A stretch of 64,000 nt of DNA. Origin: Deltaproteobacteria bacterium (GTDB taxonomy: Bacteria; Desulfobacterota; Desulfuromonadia; Geobacterales; Pseudopelobacteraceae). Made by a program: the position numbers and the translations under genes. Shown piece by piece: positions 40,397-49,133 of this stretch; the first letter of the stretch is position 1, and every line of letters begins with the position of its first letter. A model generated the notes under the pieces. It made no database searches. It was given only the letters and a program-made list of their open reading frames with translations, and had not been told where the DNA came from. The DNA lies in the NCBI GenBank assembly GCA_016182975.1, contig JACPFJ010000018.1, forward strand, positions 1 to 64,000, in the 5' to 3' direction.

Positions 40397-41641
40397 TCAC
40401 AAGAAAAGCTTCGCGATATCATCCGCCGCAAGCGGGACCTCGATCTGAATTCCGTCCTCCATCCGCTTGAAGAACGCCCTGCCCGAGGCCGCCTCGTTCC
40501 CGCCGACGACCACGCTGTAGCGCGCCCCGAGCTTGTCGGCCCGCCGCATCTGGCTCTTCAGGCTCTTCCCCTCGTAGTCCAGTTCCACCCGCACCCCCAA
40601 ACCCAGGAGCTCCTGCATCAGCCGGAAGGCGAAGGCGCGCTCCCCCGCCCCCATGGTGGCGATGAACAGGTCCGGCCGGCTGGAAAAGTCCTGTTCCCCC
40701 AAGAGCAGCGCCACCCGCTCCACCCCCATGGCGAAGCCGATGCCGGGGATGGCGGGGCCGCCCAGCTGCGAGATCAGCCCGTCGTAGCGCCCGCCGGCGG
40801 CAACGGCCGACTGTGAGCCCAGAAGTCCGGTGACCATCTCGAAGGTGGTGCGGGTGTAGTAGTCCAGGCCGCGCACCATACGGGGGTTGATCGTGTAGGG
40901 TGTCCCAATCGATTCCAGGTAGCCCTGGACGGCGGCGAAGTGCTCACCGCAGCCGCCGCAGAGGTGTTCCAGCACCGAGGGGGCGCCGGCGGTGGCCTCC
41001 ACGCAGCGCGGCACCTTGCAGTCCAGGGTGCGCAGCGGGTTGGTGGTGAAACGCCGCCGGCAATCCTCGCAGAGATGCTCCAGCCTCCCTTCCAGGAACG
41101 CCAAAAGCGCCTCGCGGTAGGCCGGACGGCAGTCGGGACACCCCAGGGAGTTGATCTGAAGCACAGGCTCGGTAAGCCCGATCTCGCGGAAGAAGCTCAC
41201 CAGCATCGTCAGCACCTGGGCATCGGCCAGCGGGTCGTGGACGCCGGTGATCTCGGCGCCGATCTGGTGGAACTGGCGGTAACGCCCCTTCTGGGGGCGT
41301 TCGTAGCGGAACATGGGGCCCATGTAGTACAGCTTCGCCACCGGGTCCTGTGCGTAGAGCTTGTGCTCGATAAAGGCCCTCATCACCCCGGCGGTCCCCT
41401 CCGGGCGCAGGGTGACGCTGTTGTCCCCCTTGTCGGTGAAGGTATACATCTCCTTCTCGACGATGTCGGTGGCGTCACCGATGGAGCGGCTGAACAACTC
41501 GGTCTTCTCCATGACCGGCACGCGGATCTCGGCGAAACCGTTCAACTCGAACACCCGCCTGGCGGCCTGCTCGATATGCTGCCACCTGCCGGACTCCTCC
41601 GGCAGGATGTCGTTGAATCCCTTTATTGCAGTTATTGCCAT
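40397..41641 (-). CDS. hisS: Histidyl-tRNA synthetase
   Basis: A 414-residue class II synthetase with motif 2 (MFRYERPQKGRYRQFHQIGAE), the histidine-binding RGLDYYTRT and motif 3 (GIGFAMGVERV), and a C-terminal anticodon-binding domain. ATG at 41641 follows GAGGAAC; a longer frame would run into the upstream repeat. Confidence 0.96.
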   Translation of the reverse strand: MAITAIKGFNDILPEESGRWQHIEQAARRVFELNGFAEIRVPVMEKTELFSRSIGDATDIVEKEMYTFTDKGDNSVTLRPEGTAGVMRAFIEHKLYAQDPVAKLYYMGPMFRYERPQKGRYRQFHQIGAEITGVHDPLADAQVLTMLVSFFREIGLTEPVLQINSLGCPDCRPAYREALLAFLEGRLEHLCEDCRRRFTTNPLRTLDCKVPRCVEATAGAPSVLEHLCGGCGEHFAAVQGYLESIGTPYTINPRMVRGLDYYTRTTFEMVTGLLGSQSAVAAGGRYDGLISQLGGPAIPGIGFAMGVERVALLLGEQDFSSRPDLFIATMGAGERAFAFRLMQELLGLGVRVELDYEGKSLKSQMRRADKLGARYSVVVGGNEAASGRAFFKRMEDGIQIEVPLAADDIAKLFL

Positions 41642-41853: not shown

Positions 41854-43224
41854 CTATTTCGCGAAGCGCATGGCGCAGTTCTTGCCGCCCGTCTTTCCGG
41901 CATACATGGCCTTGTCGGCCATCTCCAGCAGTTCCTGCTTCGACATGGTGTCCTCGGGGCAGCAGGCATACCCGATGCTGCAGGTCAGACGGATGTCGTA
42001 ACCCTCCTCGGCCAGAAAATGGTGTGATTCGACCAGGCCGCGGATTCGTTCGGCAATTTTTCCGGCCGTGGTGCAGTTCGTTTCCACCAGGATGACGGTG
42101 TATTCGTCGCCGCCGTAGCGGATGACCACATCCACCTCGCGGACCGATTTTTTCAAAAGCGCCCCCATCTCCTTGAGCACCTGGCTCCCCACGAGATGCC
42201 CGTGGGTGTCGTTGACCTGCTTGAAGGCATCCATATCCAGGAACAACACGGAGAGCTGCGAGGCGTAGCGCTCGGCCCGCTTCAGCTCGCGGTCCAGGAC
42301 CACCTCAAGGTAGCGGTAATTGAAGAGACCCGAGAGGTCGTCGATAAAGAGCATGTCCTTGGCAAGGGAATACGATTCCGCGTTCTCGAAGGCCAGCGCC
42401 GCCTGTTCCAGCAGGAAGAGGACATTCTTCTTCCTGGCGTGAAAATCGGGCAGGCGGACACCTGGGTCGTTGAACAGGGCGATGACCCCCTGCATGGCTT
42501 CCCTGACGCGCACGAAGATCAGGTAGGCCTCTTCGATGCCTGCACCGCTTCCATCCCCTGCCGGAGATCCATGCAGGCTGATCCGGGACATCAACTGATT
42601 GTGCGGCAGGTGCCTGGAGACGCGTGACAGGATGACGTCGCCGTACTGTCCGGCGATGCCGGCGTCGAGTCCCTTGACCTCCCTGACCGCAAGGCGGTTA
42701 TCCTCCATAAACACGCCGATGCCTCGGCTGACGCCGATCTCGCGGGCAACGGCATCCACCAGCAGGTGATGGACGCGGTCCAGTTCGAGGCAGCCGGCGA
42801 TTGCCTGGCTGGCCTGAAACAGGTTGAGCATGTTCCTGAGCTCTACGTTTTCGTCCAGGAGCCGACGCTGCTCCATGCATTGGGACACCGAGTGCCGGAA
42901 TTCATCGGGATTGACCGGTTTGATCAGGTAGTCGCGGGCGCCGTGTTTGAGGGCGAAGATGGCCGACTCCATATTGGCGTTGCCGGTCACCATGATGACG
43001 TCGATGCCGGGATCGTTCTCCTTGATGCGGGCGAGTACCTCCATGCCGTCCATATCCGGCATGGTCAGGTCGGTGATCACCAGGTCGTAGGCCACGTCGG
43101 CCAGCATCCGCAGACCTTCGGCGCCGCCGCAGGCGCTATCCACCTCGTACCCCTCCCTTTTGAGCAGGTCGGAGAACATCTCCCGGAAAAAGCTGTCATC
43201 CTCAACGATCAGAATCCTGTCCAT
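41854..43224 (-). CDS. Receiver-GAF-GGDEF cyclase of the Hypr (3',3'-cGAMP) type
   Basis: A 456-residue response regulator. The receiver domain has phospho-acceptor Asp52 and Lys102; a GAF-like middle spans about 135-285; the GGDEF domain has metal-binding D330/D332, N338 and GGDEY at 371-375. Residue 347 (codon 42186-42184, AGC) is Ser where ordinary diguanylate cyclases have Asp (PleD D344). The Asp-to-Ser change defines Hypr enzymes such as Geobacter sulfurreducens GacA (GSU1658), which make cGAMP, and GacA also lies next to hisS as I recall. ATG at 43224 is preferred; a longer frame upstream is not receiver-like. Confidence 0.88.
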   Translation of the reverse strand: MDRILIVEDDSFFREMFSDLLKREGYEVDSACGGAEGLRMLADVAYDLVITDLTMPDMDGMEVLARIKENDPGIDVIMVTGNANMESAIFALKHGARDYLIKPVNPDEFRHSVSQCMEQRRLLDENVELRNMLNLFQASQAIAGCLELDRVHHLLVDAVAREIGVSRGIGVFMEDNRLAVREVKGLDAGIAGQYGDVILSRVSRHLPHNQLMSRISLHGSPAGDGSGAGIEEAYLIFVRVREAMQGVIALFNDPGVRLPDFHARKKNVLFLLEQAALAFENAESYSLAKDMLFIDDLSGLFNYRYLEVVLDRELKRAERYASQLSVLFLDMDAFKQVNDTHGHLVGSQVLKEMGALLKKSVREVDVVIRYGGDEYTVILVETNCTTAGKIAERIRGLVESHHFLAEEGYDIRLTCSIGYACCPEDTMSKQELLEMADKAMYAGKTGGKNCAMRFAK

Positions 43225-43327: not shown

Positions 43328-45793
43328 TCAGGGGCGCCATGGAGTGAAGATCTCCCAGCCGCTGCCGTCGCTGACCAGTTCGATGCTGCCGTCCCGGTCG
43401 GTGCGGTACGTCCTGATCCCCCTCTTCTCAAGCAGCCCGAGCGTCCTTTTGGAGGGGAGTCCGAAACTGTTCCCATAGCCGGCGGAGATCAGGGCGATCT
43501 GCGGGGCGACCCGGTCGAGGAAGGGCGCGGAGGTGGAAAAACGGCTGCCGTGGTGGCCGACCTTGAGCACGCTCGACGCGACAGCCGCCTTGCTCGCCAA
43601 TATGCGTTCCTCGGCCGGGAAGCCGCTGTCGGCGGTAAACAGCACGCTGTTCGCGCCATGACTCAGACGAAACACCAGGGAATCCTCATTCATCTCCTTG
43701 CCGTCGAACGTCTCCACCGTATGATGCTGGGCCGTCCGTGGCGGCGACAGGACCGTCATCGCAACGCTGCCGGAGAGCCGTATGACCTCCCCGCTAGAGA
43801 GGTGCCGCATCGGCACCCGCTTCGCGACCAGGTTGGCGCGCAGGCGCTCGTAATCCTCTCCATCGCCGCCCGGTGCCGCCTCCAGGAATTCACCCACCGG
43901 GAGCGTCAGGGCCACGTACGCCAACCCCCCGCTGTGGTCGGAGTGGCTGTGGGTCATGACCATGCGGTCGATGCGCCTCACCCCCAGCCTGAACAGGGCC
44001 GGCGCCAGGATGCGCTCGCCGAAGTCCCGCCCGTTGTCGCGGAGGTAGCCGCCCCCGTCCACCAGCATGGTGTCCCCCTCTGGCATGCGAATCAGCATGG
44101 ATTCACCCTGCCCCACGCTGAGCATGATGACGTGCAGGCGGCCGTCCGCCGGCGCCCCGGTTACGAGATGGGCCAGGACGGCCGCGGACGGCAGCAAAAG
44201 ACAGAGGGTGGCCTTCAGCGCCCTTCCCTTGACGAACGTGAGGACCGACATGAACGCCAGAAAGGCCGCCATATCCCAAGGGGTGATGCCGTGGAAGCGC
44301 AGAAGCGGCATCTCGGCGAACAGCATGATCAGCCGGTTGGACATGGCCGTCAGTTTTCCGGCCAGCCAGAGAAGCCCTGTGGCGGCAGGCGCAAAGATGA
44401 ACACGAACGGCAGGGCGCAGAATCCGGCCAGCACCGCACCGTATCCCAGGAGCGGAACGATCAGGAAATTGGAGATGATGCCGTTAATGGATGCCTGGTC
44501 GAAGATGAACAGCACCGGCACCATGGTGGCGAACGAGGCGGCGCAGGAGGTGACGACGAACTGGAGCAGGGCGCGCGGCCAGCCGTGCCGGATGGGACTC
44601 AGGCGTTCCATGACCGCTGGTACGGCAATGACGATCCCCCACAGCGCCAGGAAGGAGAGTTGGAACGAGATGTCGAACAGGCTGGGCGGGTTGAGGGCCA
44701 AAAGCAGCAGGGCCGAGAACAGCAGGGCGTTGACCGGGTCGGTCTCGCGCTCGGCGTAGAGGGCCAGGACAAATCCGGCCAGCATGATGACCGAACGGGC
44801 CGTGGCCGGCGCCGCACCGGTCAGGAAGAGGTAGAGGAGCATGGCCGGCAGGGAGAGGAGCAGCACCAGGCGGCGCAGATTGAACCCGATGGCCAGGCGC
44901 TCGCAACGGACAGCCAGCAGCAGGCTGATCTGGACGATGAAAAAGGCGATGATGCCGACGTGGAAACCGGAGATGGAGAGGATGTGGTTGACCCCGGCCC
45001 TGGTGTAGGCAGAGGCCAACTGCTCCGGTATCCGTTTCTGGTCGCCGAGCAGGAGCGCCGCCAGCACCGACGAGACCTCTGTGTCCGGCAGCGCGGCGCG
45101 GATGAAATCCCCAAGGCGGCGCGCCGCCAGGTCGAGCCTGCGCAGTGGCGAATCCTCGGCCGCTCCCCGCATAAGCACGATCTCGTCCGCCGTTTCAAGC
45201 CTGGCGGTGGCGGCAATACCCCGCAAAGAAAGGTAGCGCGGGTAATCGAACTCTCCCGGCAGACCCAGCCGGCGGGGCATGGTTATGCGTGCCGCCAGAC
45301 GAACACGGTCACCCCGCGCCACGGGGATATCGCCGGCCGAAACGTACACCAGCAGGCTGCCGCTGGCCGGAAGCTGGCGCCCCTCGCTGATCACAGTTTC
45401 GGTCCGCATGATGAAGCTGCCGCCGTTGGGGGTGGCCACGGGGCGCGAGCTGACGACCCCCTCGACCGTGACCGCAGCGGGCGCGGCATGGCGTTCGATT
45501 GCGTACGGCGAGGAGGAGGGGGCCTTCCAGGGGGTCAGGGCGAAAAGGCCCCAGACCAGGAAAAAGACGAAGGTGCAGGCGGCCAGGGGCACCCGGCCGG
45601 GGAGGAGGCAGGAGAGCAGCAGACAGCCCATGGCGGCCGCCACGGCGGAAAAGGGGAGCAGAACGCCGCTCAGATCCGCAATGGTCAGTCCGGCGGCCAG
45701 CGCCAGGAAAGGGATGAGCAAAGGACGCTCCCGGAGCATCCGCTCAACATCCTGCCGGGTGATTCCCGTATGTGAACATGTTGCCTCCGGCAA
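43328..45793 (-). CDS. comEC: ComEC/Rec2-family DNA uptake channel
   Basis: Up to 821 residues: an N-terminal DUF4131 region, a Competence domain with many membrane helices (SGFHVGIIAFF, ATARSVIMLAGF), and a C-terminal metallo-beta-lactamase domain with HSHSDHSGG and VGHHGS. It would carry single-stranded DNA across the inner membrane. The start is uncertain: the TTG at 45793 has no ribosome site, and an ATG at 45739 is another option. Confidence 0.9.
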   Translation of the reverse strand: MPEATCSHTGITRQDVERMLRERPLLIPFLALAAGLTIADLSGVLLPFSAVAAAMGCLLLSCLLPGRVPLAACTFVFFLVWGLFALTPWKAPSSSPYAIERHAAPAAVTVEGVVSSRPVATPNGGSFIMRTETVISEGRQLPASGSLLVYVSAGDIPVARGDRVRLAARITMPRRLGLPGEFDYPRYLSLRGIAATARLETADEIVLMRGAAEDSPLRRLDLAARRLGDFIRAALPDTEVSSVLAALLLGDQKRIPEQLASAYTRAGVNHILSISGFHVGIIAFFIVQISLLLAVRCERLAIGFNLRRLVLLLSLPAMLLYLFLTGAAPATARSVIMLAGFVLALYAERETDPVNALLFSALLLLALNPPSLFDISFQLSFLALWGIVIAVPAVMERLSPIRHGWPRALLQFVVTSCAASFATMVPVLFIFDQASINGIISNFLIVPLLGYGAVLAGFCALPFVFIFAPAATGLLWLAGKLTAMSNRLIMLFAEMPLLRFHGITPWDMAAFLAFMSVLTFVKGRALKATLCLLLPSAAVLAHLVTGAPADGRLHVIMLSVGQGESMLIRMPEGDTMLVDGGGYLRDNGRDFGERILAPALFRLGVRRIDRMVMTHSHSDHSGGLAYVALTLPVGEFLEAAPGGDGEDYERLRANLVAKRVPMRHLSSGEVIRLSGSVAMTVLSPPRTAQHHTVETFDGKEMNEDSLVFRLSHGANSVLFTADSGFPAEERILASKAAVASSVLKVGHHGSRFSTSAPFLDRVAPQIALISAGYGNSFGLPSKRTLGLLEKRGIRTYRTDRDGSIELVSDGSGWEIFTPWRP

Positions 45794-45922: not shown

Positions 45923-48094
45923 ATGAGCGCACATTCCGCCAGTGACAGGGACGACGGTTTGCAGGCCGAATCGGAGCTGAGAAAATTCTACCTCGCCGCC
46001 GAACAGAGCCCCAGTCAACTCGTCATCACCAACACCAAGGGCCTGATCGAATACGCCAACCCCAGGCTGTGCGAGGTAACCGGTTTTACCCGGGATGAGA
46101 TCATAGGCCAAACCCCCGCTCTCTTCAAATCGGGCAGGATGCCCTCCCTCTTCTACAGGTCGCTGTGGGATACCCTGCGCGCGGGTCAGGAATGGCAGGG
46201 GGAGTTTCTGAACCGCCGCAAGGATGGGTCATTCTACTGGGAGCGCGCCTCCATCGCCCCCATCAAGGACAGCGGCGGAACCATTACGCACTTCATCAAG
46301 GTCGCGGAGGACGTCACCGAACAGAGGCGCGCCGAGGAAAGCCAGCGCCGCAGCCTCAAGCTGAGTGAGGCGATCACGGCCGCAAACCTGCGCTTCATCG
46401 AGACCGGCAGCCTCAACCAGATGGCCGCCGTGCTTCTCGATACCTGCATGACCATCACCAACTCTCCCTTCGGCCTGTTCTATGAACTGCGCCAGAGTGG
46501 GGACGCCGGCATCCTGGCCCTTTCCCTGGCCTCCTTCGACCCTGTATCCGAAGAAACGGTCTTTCGCGACATCCAGTACGACATACGTCGCAATGGTCAC
46601 TTTGAGCTTAAGCGCCATGAATCGATCCTCTTCGCGCCGGTGACGGAGGGGACGACCGTGGTGGTGAACACGCCCGAGGAGAACCTCTGGAAAGGGTGCA
46701 CCTGCCCGGTCTGCACGCCGACGTTGAACACCTTCGCCGGAATCCCACTCAAGATCGGCACGACGGTGATCGGCATGCTCGGCCTGGCAAACCGCGAAGG
46801 CGGATATCTGAAGGAAGAAATCCAGGAGATGGAGAACTTCGCCCAAACCTGCGCGCTGGCCATCGGCAGCGCCAAAGCGGAGCTCGACCGCACACAGGCC
46901 AGGGAACAGCTCCGCCAGGCGCAGAAGATGGAGGCCATCGGCCAACTGGCGGGCGGTATCGCCCACGACTTCAACAACCTGCTCACCGTCATCAACGGCT
47001 ACAGCACCCTGCTGCTCCAGAAGATCGGCGCCAATGAACAGATGCGCAAGGAGGTCGAGCAGATTCTCAGCGCCGGCGAGCGTGCCTCAACCCTGATCAG
47101 GCAGCTCTTGGCCTTCGGGCGCAGACAGATGCTCGAGCCGCGCCTGCTGAACATCAACACCCTGATTGCGAGCCTGCATAAGATCCTCTGCCGGCTGATC
47201 GGCGAGAACATCACCCTCTCCACCGAGCTGGCCACCGACATCGGCATGGTCAGGGCGGACCCCAGCCAGATCGAGCAGATCATCATGAACCTGGTCATCA
47301 ATGCCCGTGACGCATTGGATGAACGCGGCGGCTCCATCACCGTGGAAACCGCCAACCAGTACCTGGACGCGGCCTTTGCCCGCCGCAACAGAGGCGCCGA
47401 AGCGGGCGACTTTATCATGATCGCCGTCCGGGATACCGGCATGGGGATGTCGGAGGAGCTGATCGGCAGGATCTTCGAGCCCTTCTTCACAACCAAGGCA
47501 CAGGGGTACGGCACCGGCCTGGGGTTGGCGACGGTCTACGGCATCGTCAAGCAGAGCAACGGCTACATCAAGGTAAGGAGCGAAGTGGGAATGGGTAGCG
47601 AGTTCCGTATCTACCTCCCCAGGGTCGCTGAGGGAGCGGAACAGGTCGCAGCCGTGGATCTCCATCGCCGGAAGGGGGCGTCAATCAGGGATTCGGGATT
47701 GATCCTGATCGTCGAGGACGAGCGGGCCGTACTCGACCTCTCCGCCACTACCCTCAGGTCGCGCGGTTACGATGTGCTGACCGCCTCCGGCCCGCAGGAT
47801 GCGCTCATGCTGTTCGAACGCCACGCCGGGGAGATTGACCTGCTGCTCACGGATGTCATGATGCCCGTCATGTCGGGACCCGAGATGGTGCAGCGCATGC
47901 TTGCCAAACGCCCCGACCTGAAGGTGGTCTTCATGTCGGGCTATACGGACGAAAAACTCAGGATGTCCGAATTCCCCGATGAGCAGCTGGCCTTCATCAT
48001 GAAACCCTTCAGCCCGGACAACCTGATCAACATGATCAGCGACAGCATCCGCCGCCCCAACGGGCCGGTTCCCACGGAGACACCGCATGAATGA
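45923..48094 (+). CDS. Hybrid sensor histidine kinase (PAS-GAF-HisKA-HATPase-receiver)
   Basis: A 723-residue protein: PAS (about 25-140), GAF-like domain with a CTCPVC stretch (about 165-325), HisKA with phospho-acceptor His near 348 ([11 protein letters not shown]), HATPase_c with [10 protein letters not shown] and [11 protein letters not shown], and a C-terminal receiver with Asp near 644 (LLLTDVMMP). No membrane segment is seen, so it is cytosolic. ATG at 45923 is preferred. It overlaps the next response regulator by eight bases, its likely partner. Confidence 0.9.
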
Positions 48095-49133
48095 ACACAT
48101 CCTGATAGTTGACGACGAGGAGATGATCAGGGAACTGCTCTCCTCGGCACTCCTCCAGGAGGGGTACAGCTGCCACCAGGCGGCAAACGTGGATGCAGCC
48201 TTTGCAATCCTGGGCGAACAGTCGGTCGACCTGGTGATCTCGGACATCATGATGCCGGGCAGAAGCGGCGTGGACCTCCTCAGGGACCTGAAGAGGGTCG
48301 ATCCCGACATCGCCGTTCTGATGATAACGGGACTTTCCGACATGAGCACCGCCATGGAGTGCATCCATCTCGGTGCGGAAGACTATATCACCAAGCCTTT
48401 CGGCATCAGCAGGGTTGTGCTGACGGTCAGGAACCTGATCGAGAAGCGCTGTCTAGCCATCGAGAAGAAGAATTATCAGGTCAGCCTGGAATTCAAGGTC
48501 ATGGAGCAGACCGAGCAGCTGCGCCGCACCATGAACGAGCTGCACGACGCCTACGACAGCACCCTCACGGCGCTGGTCAAGGCGCTTGATGCCCGCGAGA
48601 AGGAGGTCGGCTCCCATTCGGAGCGGGTGATGAACTTCTCCACCTTCATGGCCGGCAAGCTGGGCATCAGGGGGAACGATCTGGAACAGTTGGCCAAGGG
48701 GGCCCTGCTGCACGATATCGGCAAGATCGGCATCTCCGACAACACCCTGCTCAAGCCGGGCAAGCTGGACGATGCGGAATGGATCGAGATGCGCCGCCAC
48801 CCCCAGATCGGTTATGCCATCCTCTCCGAGATCCGCTTCCTCAAGGGGCCGGCCGAAATCATCCTCACCCACCACGAGCGTTTCGACGGCACCGGTTACC
48901 CCAAACAGCTCAAGGGGAACCAGATACCGATCGGCTCCCGCATCTTCGTGCTGGTGGATACGCTGGACGCCATGACCTCCGACCGCCCCTATCGCCGGGC
49001 GCTCCCTTTCGAGGCCGTCACCAGCGAGGTCATCAAATGCCGCGGCACCCAGTTCGACCCCGAGATCGCCGACCTGTTCCTCTCCATCACCCGCAGTCAA
49101 TGGGAGGATTGTGCCGGGAAGAAATTCATCTGA
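48087..49133 (+). CDS. Response regulator with HD-GYP phosphodiesterase domain
   Basis: A 348-residue protein: receiver with Asp53 (LVISDIMMP) and KPFG, a coiled-coil linker, then an HD-GYP domain with HDIGKIG near residue 211, HHERFDGTGYP and DTLDAMTSDRPYR. HD-GYP enzymes hydrolyse cyclic di-GMP and in some cases cGAMP. It overlaps and is coupled to the hybrid kinase gene. Confidence 0.93.
   Translation: MNEHILIVDDEEMIRELLSSALLQEGYSCHQAANVDAAFAILGEQSVDLVISDIMMPGRSGVDLLRDLKRVDPDIAVLMITGLSDMSTAMECIHLGAEDYITKPFGISRVVLTVRNLIEKRCLAIEKKNYQVSLEFKVMEQTEQLRRTMNELHDAYDSTLTALVKALDAREKEVGSHSERVMNFSTFMAGKLGIRGNDLEQLAKGALLHDIGKIGISDNTLLKPGKLDDAEWIEMRRHPQIGYAILSEIRFLKGPAEIILTHHERFDGTGYPKQLKGNQIPIGSRIFVLVDTLDAMTSDRPYRRALPFEAVTSEVIKCRGTQFDPEIADLFLSITRSQWEDCAGKKFI

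Follow-up and report, generated by a model that had tools for sequence, protein, structure and literature searches.

A stretch of 64,000 nucleotides (the window) from an uncultured bacterium of the Geobacter group carries a gene that we identify from its sequence as an orthologue of gacA, a conclusion supported by residue agreement with the characterised enzymes, 69% identity to the GmGacA catalytic domain and a shared comEC-gacA-hisS gene order. We put at roughly 90% the probability that it works as in G. sulfurreducens, making mainly 3',3'-cGAMP that is read by GEMM-Ib riboswitches. This reading draws on the orthology, active-site residues, synteny and riboswitch architecture observed here. 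The gene is a local version of an already characterised enzyme, the norm in its lineage; because nearly all related genomes carry gacA and this genome has the expected riboswitches, the finding, though correct, is unremarkable within the group. What it adds is to place the Geobacter cGAMP pathway in an uncultured lineage and to show that gacA is widespread in its family.

Gene model, active site and orthologues

The frame is intact from an ATG at 43224 to a stop ending at 41854, and its 456 residues run from a receiver domain through a middle region to a GGDEF domain (Pfam Response_reg 4-113, E 3.5e-31; GGDEF 294-449, E 4e-41; Table 1). A longer mechanical open reading frame begins at 43476; we took the ATG at 43224 as the start because it comes after AAGGGAACC and the starts of orthologues align there.

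Table 1. Coordinates of the gacA orthologue, its notable residues and its neighbours in the window
Feature	Position	Strand	Basis
gacA orthologue, 456 codons	41854..43224	-	open frame, Pfam, residue check, orthologue alignment
Receiver domain, residues 4-113, including Asp52	42886..43215	-	Pfam PF00072 and residue check
GGDEF domain	41878..42345	-	Pfam PF00990
Codon 303, Tyr, cross-dimer specificity residue of GsGacA/GmGacA	42316..42318	-	residue check, published position
Codon 347, Ser, Hypr signature residue	42184..42186	-	residue check, orthologue alignment
GGDEY signature, residues 371-375, with Mg-binding Asp373	42100..42114	-	residue check
hisS, conserved downstream neighbour	40397..41641	-	neighbourhood comparison
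comEC-like competence gene, conserved upstream neighbour	43328..45793	-	neighbourhood comparison
Response regulator with HD-GYP domain	48087-49133	+	HD domain; HDIGK...HHERFDGTGYP signature

The original prediction had read this gene as a GGDEF enzyme with Ser347 in place of Asp, and this was borne out: Ser347, the Hypr hallmark, stands where diguanylate cyclases have their guanine-contacting Asp and is conserved in all readable orthologues. D52, K102, Y303, S347, D373 (in RYGGDEY) and R393 all fall at the expected numbers, and the agreement with G. sulfurreducens GacA that had been proposed for Asp52 and Ser347 extends to D52, Y303, S347, D373 and R393 (PMC6456294). The comparison with GacA (GSU1658) and GmGacA (Gmet_1914), made through the published numbering and domain 6d9m, gives a common receiver-GGDEF architecture, with D52, Y303, S347, the GGDE motif and R393 at identical numbers. 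Structure 6d9m, the Hypr GGDEF domain of GmGacA from G. metallireducens, is also the top PDB match (240 bits vs 153 for PleD), with 111 of 161 positions identical (69%). PleD and other receiver-GGDEF diguanylate cyclases share the architecture and fold, but in the alignment PleD has Asp, GGEEF and Arg where the window protein has Ser347, GGDEY and Tyr303. NCBIfam returned generic diguanylate cyclase matches only, the equivalogs falling under their cut-offs.

One orthologue each was found in 66 of 76 family genomes (E<=1e-80), so that the observation is not a matter of chance. Ser347 together with GGDE[Y/F] occurs in all orthologues whose GGDEF domain is readable, Y being commoner than F. The weight given to GGDEY as a departure from the canonical motif proved misplaced: although GacA and GmGacA have GGDEF, GGDEY is the usual form in this group and lies within the published rule for Ser/Thr-type enzymes, GGDE[F/Y], with Asp (here D373) rather than Glu in third place (PMC6456294). 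We accordingly dropped GGDEY as a distinctive feature. The cross-dimer position 303 is His in most orthologues, Gln in a few, and Tyr, likewise a non-Arg residue, in the window protein and genus g7. Asp52 is replaced by Glu in L035/G044 and in G056, in keeping with the D52A change, which leaves GsGacA unimpaired (PMC6456294).

The position next to hisS, which had been taken to fit GacA, is a conserved trait: where contigs extend far enough, almost every orthologue locus has hisS after gacA and comEC before it. The distant homologues L041-L049 are exceptions, as are some loci, L043 and L046 among them, in which no comEC was found. The same hisS linkage presumably holds in G. sulfurreducens.

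Some unusual homologues were also seen. Homologues outside the family (L041, L042, L044, L047, L048, L049; two of them Bdellovibrionales) have 33-43% identity and carry Ser at 347 and GGDE[F/Y]. One gacA is seemingly interrupted (L257 and L039, G034:C162:8231-9813), its two pieces being separated by a gap and sharing query residues 109-152. A hisS-adjoining homologue without the receiver part (L256 and L043, G075:C48:2585-3592) matches residues 118-454 only, and its genome has no GEMM-I riboswitch.

Riboswitches in the source genome

The source genome (G000; 2.45 Mb in 46 contigs, about 66% complete) has no riboswitch within the 64,000-nt window, and five GEMM-I aptamers (RF01051) over the Rfam cut-off elsewhere. 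Four of the five read A-C-U where the c-di-GMP type reads G20-G21-C22, with G at 46; the fifth is of the G20, G21-C46 type. The solved cGAMP riboswitch has A14 and C15-G40 at the equivalent positions (PMC6274999), and because the A20 and C21-G46 pair of the four aptamers matches these, we class the four as GEMM-Ib (3',3'-cGAMP) by architecture. Base 20 alone was rejected as a cGAMP marker because of two genomes without gacA, G043 (L129-L145) and G041 (L149-L155): their many GEMM-I aptamers may have any of A, C, G or T at that base, together with G21-C46.

The absence of cGAMP-type riboswitches from the genome had been named as an outcome that would speak against the prediction, and four were found. 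Their expected place upstream of cytochrome genes was not: none was seen beside a multihaem cytochrome gene, and ORFs near the five riboswitches contain no CXXCH motif in this assembly of about 66% completeness. The targets seen are instead pilM and secreted or lipoprotein genes. On contig C41 pilM lies downstream, with a secretin-like gene further on; on C36 the downstream genes encode a lipoprotein and a short secreted protein, and on C19 a Tat-signal metallophosphoesterase. A GEMM-Ib aptamer upstream of pilM is found in G. sulfurreducens as well, where the pilMNOP operon is a published cGAMP-riboswitch target. Following the GEMM-Ib aptamers, and overlapping their 3' ends, the sequence reads as an inverted repeat and a T-run, a layout which would be that of a transcriptional ON switch.

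Other candidate synthases and the distribution of GEMM-Ib

The genome encodes 18 GGDEF domains. In an alignment with the window protein, Asp occupies the Ser347 position in 14 of them; one is a partial domain lacking the position and three are non-Asp: the window protein itself (Ser, GGDEY), C21:12805-13095 (Ser, GGDDF) and C26:56315-56785 (Thr, GGDEF). This alignment also disposed of the notion that Ser347 is unique in the genome. The C21 protein (L275/L303, G000:C21:12034-13350) combines Ser at the Hypr position with GGDDF and a HAMP-like N-terminal part. By these features, rather than by comparison with the GSU1937 sequence, it resembles GSU1937 of G. sulfurreducens, a GGDDF protein with a demonstrated contribution to cGAMP there (PMC8835794). 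Of 30 GSU1937-like loci read, 25 have the Ser/GGDD[F/Y] pair, the motif scan finding nothing in the other five. The third, a membrane GGDEF protein with Thr at the usual Asp position (L271/L333, G000:C26:55757-56848), is found in 36 genomes, with Thr and GGDE[F/Y] in 30/30 loci read, and is conserved and apparently uncharacterised.

For the family-wide survey a strict GEMM-Ib DNA pattern missed ACTACTAAAC variants, and we therefore used a covariance model built from 34 GEMM-Ib aptamers (E<=1e-9). It scored 62 of 76 genomes as positive and gave four copies in the source genome, whose own aptamers are in the training set. The p-values that follow overstate independence because the genomes are related. 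Among near-complete genomes, 41/46 with gacA and 4/7 without it were positive (Fisher p 0.061), median copy number being 8 vs 1 (p 0.0017). A GSU1937-like gene was found in 51 family genomes (E<=1e-60), of which 50 were GEMM-Ib positive vs 12/25 without the gene (p 4e-7); among near-complete genomes the figures were 38/38 vs 7/15 (p 7e-6). The GSU1937-like gene thus follows GEMM-Ib presence across the family more closely than gacA does. All 49 genomes with both genes have GEMM-Ib, as do 9/17 with gacA alone, so the link between gacA and the riboswitch is not a strict one.

Six genomes (G037, G045, G062, G065, G068, G069) encode an intact Ser347 GacA and gave no GEMM-Ib match with the covariance model; they also lack the GSU1937-like gene. 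In two of them, G062 and G069 (L239, L242), no GEMM-I rose above the cut-off even with relaxed settings. GEMM-Ib is present in G059, G066 and G002, where neither gacA (E<=1e-80) nor a GSU1937-like gene (E<=1e-60) was detected; G059 is a single contig, and the absence of both genes in G002 may reflect an assembly gap. This uneven spread offers concrete strains for studying which enzyme supplies the riboswitches and whether there are further cGAMP receptors. With the GSU1937-like and Thr-type proteins the question of cGAMP reaches beyond gacA, and this wider set of Ser/Thr-type cyclases is the more open one. Speculatively, the organism's cGAMP network could have as many as three synthases (GacA, GSU1937-like Ser/GGDDF and Thr-type), with cGAMP acting via another receptor in the gacA-positive relatives without GEMM-Ib, although we consider this unlikely.

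Proposed mechanism and alternatives

By analogy with published GacA work, which guides our expectations of the window protein's activity, product ratio and gene control, the receiver domain would take some input and the GGDEF domain would dimerise, each monomer holding one NTP. With Ser347 replacing Asp, adenine would be accepted as well as guanine, Asp373 of GGDEY would hold Mg2+ at the distance that Ser requires, and Tyr303 would touch the partner nucleotide across the dimer. Given these roles, the main product from ATP and GTP would be 3',3'-cGAMP, perhaps with some c-di-GMP, and GEMM-Ib riboswitches would read the signal ahead of the genes for PilM, the lipoprotein, the Tat-signal metallophosphoesterase and the small secreted protein. 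Both input and targets may differ from those of GacA and GmGacA.

Could the protein instead be a diguanylate cyclase that merely carries Ser347, its main cellular product being c-di-GMP? In vitro, Hypr enzymes are promiscuous, GacA itself being able to make c-di-GMP, and a D-to-S change by itself gave canonical enzymes no cGAMP activity (PMC6456294). However, all readable orthologues keep Ser347, along with Asp373 and a residue other than Arg at 303, a combination that has been linked to cGAMP output, and the genome has cGAMP-type riboswitches; we regard this alternative as highly improbable. Still further from likely is a catalytically dead nucleotide sensor: some GGDEF proteins are inactive, a general point with nothing specific to this one, but here GGDEY, including Asp373 and Glu374, is intact and conserved, as are the motifs around it. 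The original prediction of a probable cGAMP synthase of the GacA type is supported by orthology and riboswitches, with 3',3'-cGAMP as the probable product.

A doubtful though more credible proposal, compatible with our main explanation, is that most of the cGAMP comes from the GSU1937-like Ser/GGDDF enzyme, with GacA a lesser source. On Fe(III) citrate, GSU1937 is the larger contributor of the two in G. sulfurreducens, whereas in fumarate-grown cells the gacA deletion has the larger effect (PMC8835794). The closer association of GEMM-Ib with the GSU1937-like gene favours the proposal, but gacA genomes without that gene can hold many GEMM-Ib copies (18 in G016, 9 in G005).

Beyond the cyclases, the HD-GYP response regulator in the window, divergent from comEC-gacA-hisS, might, as a guess, be a partner phosphodiesterase degrading cGAMP. 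Its orthologue was found in 14 of 18 relatives, in all 14 on the gacA contig, 2.7-9.3 kb away and on the opposite strand.
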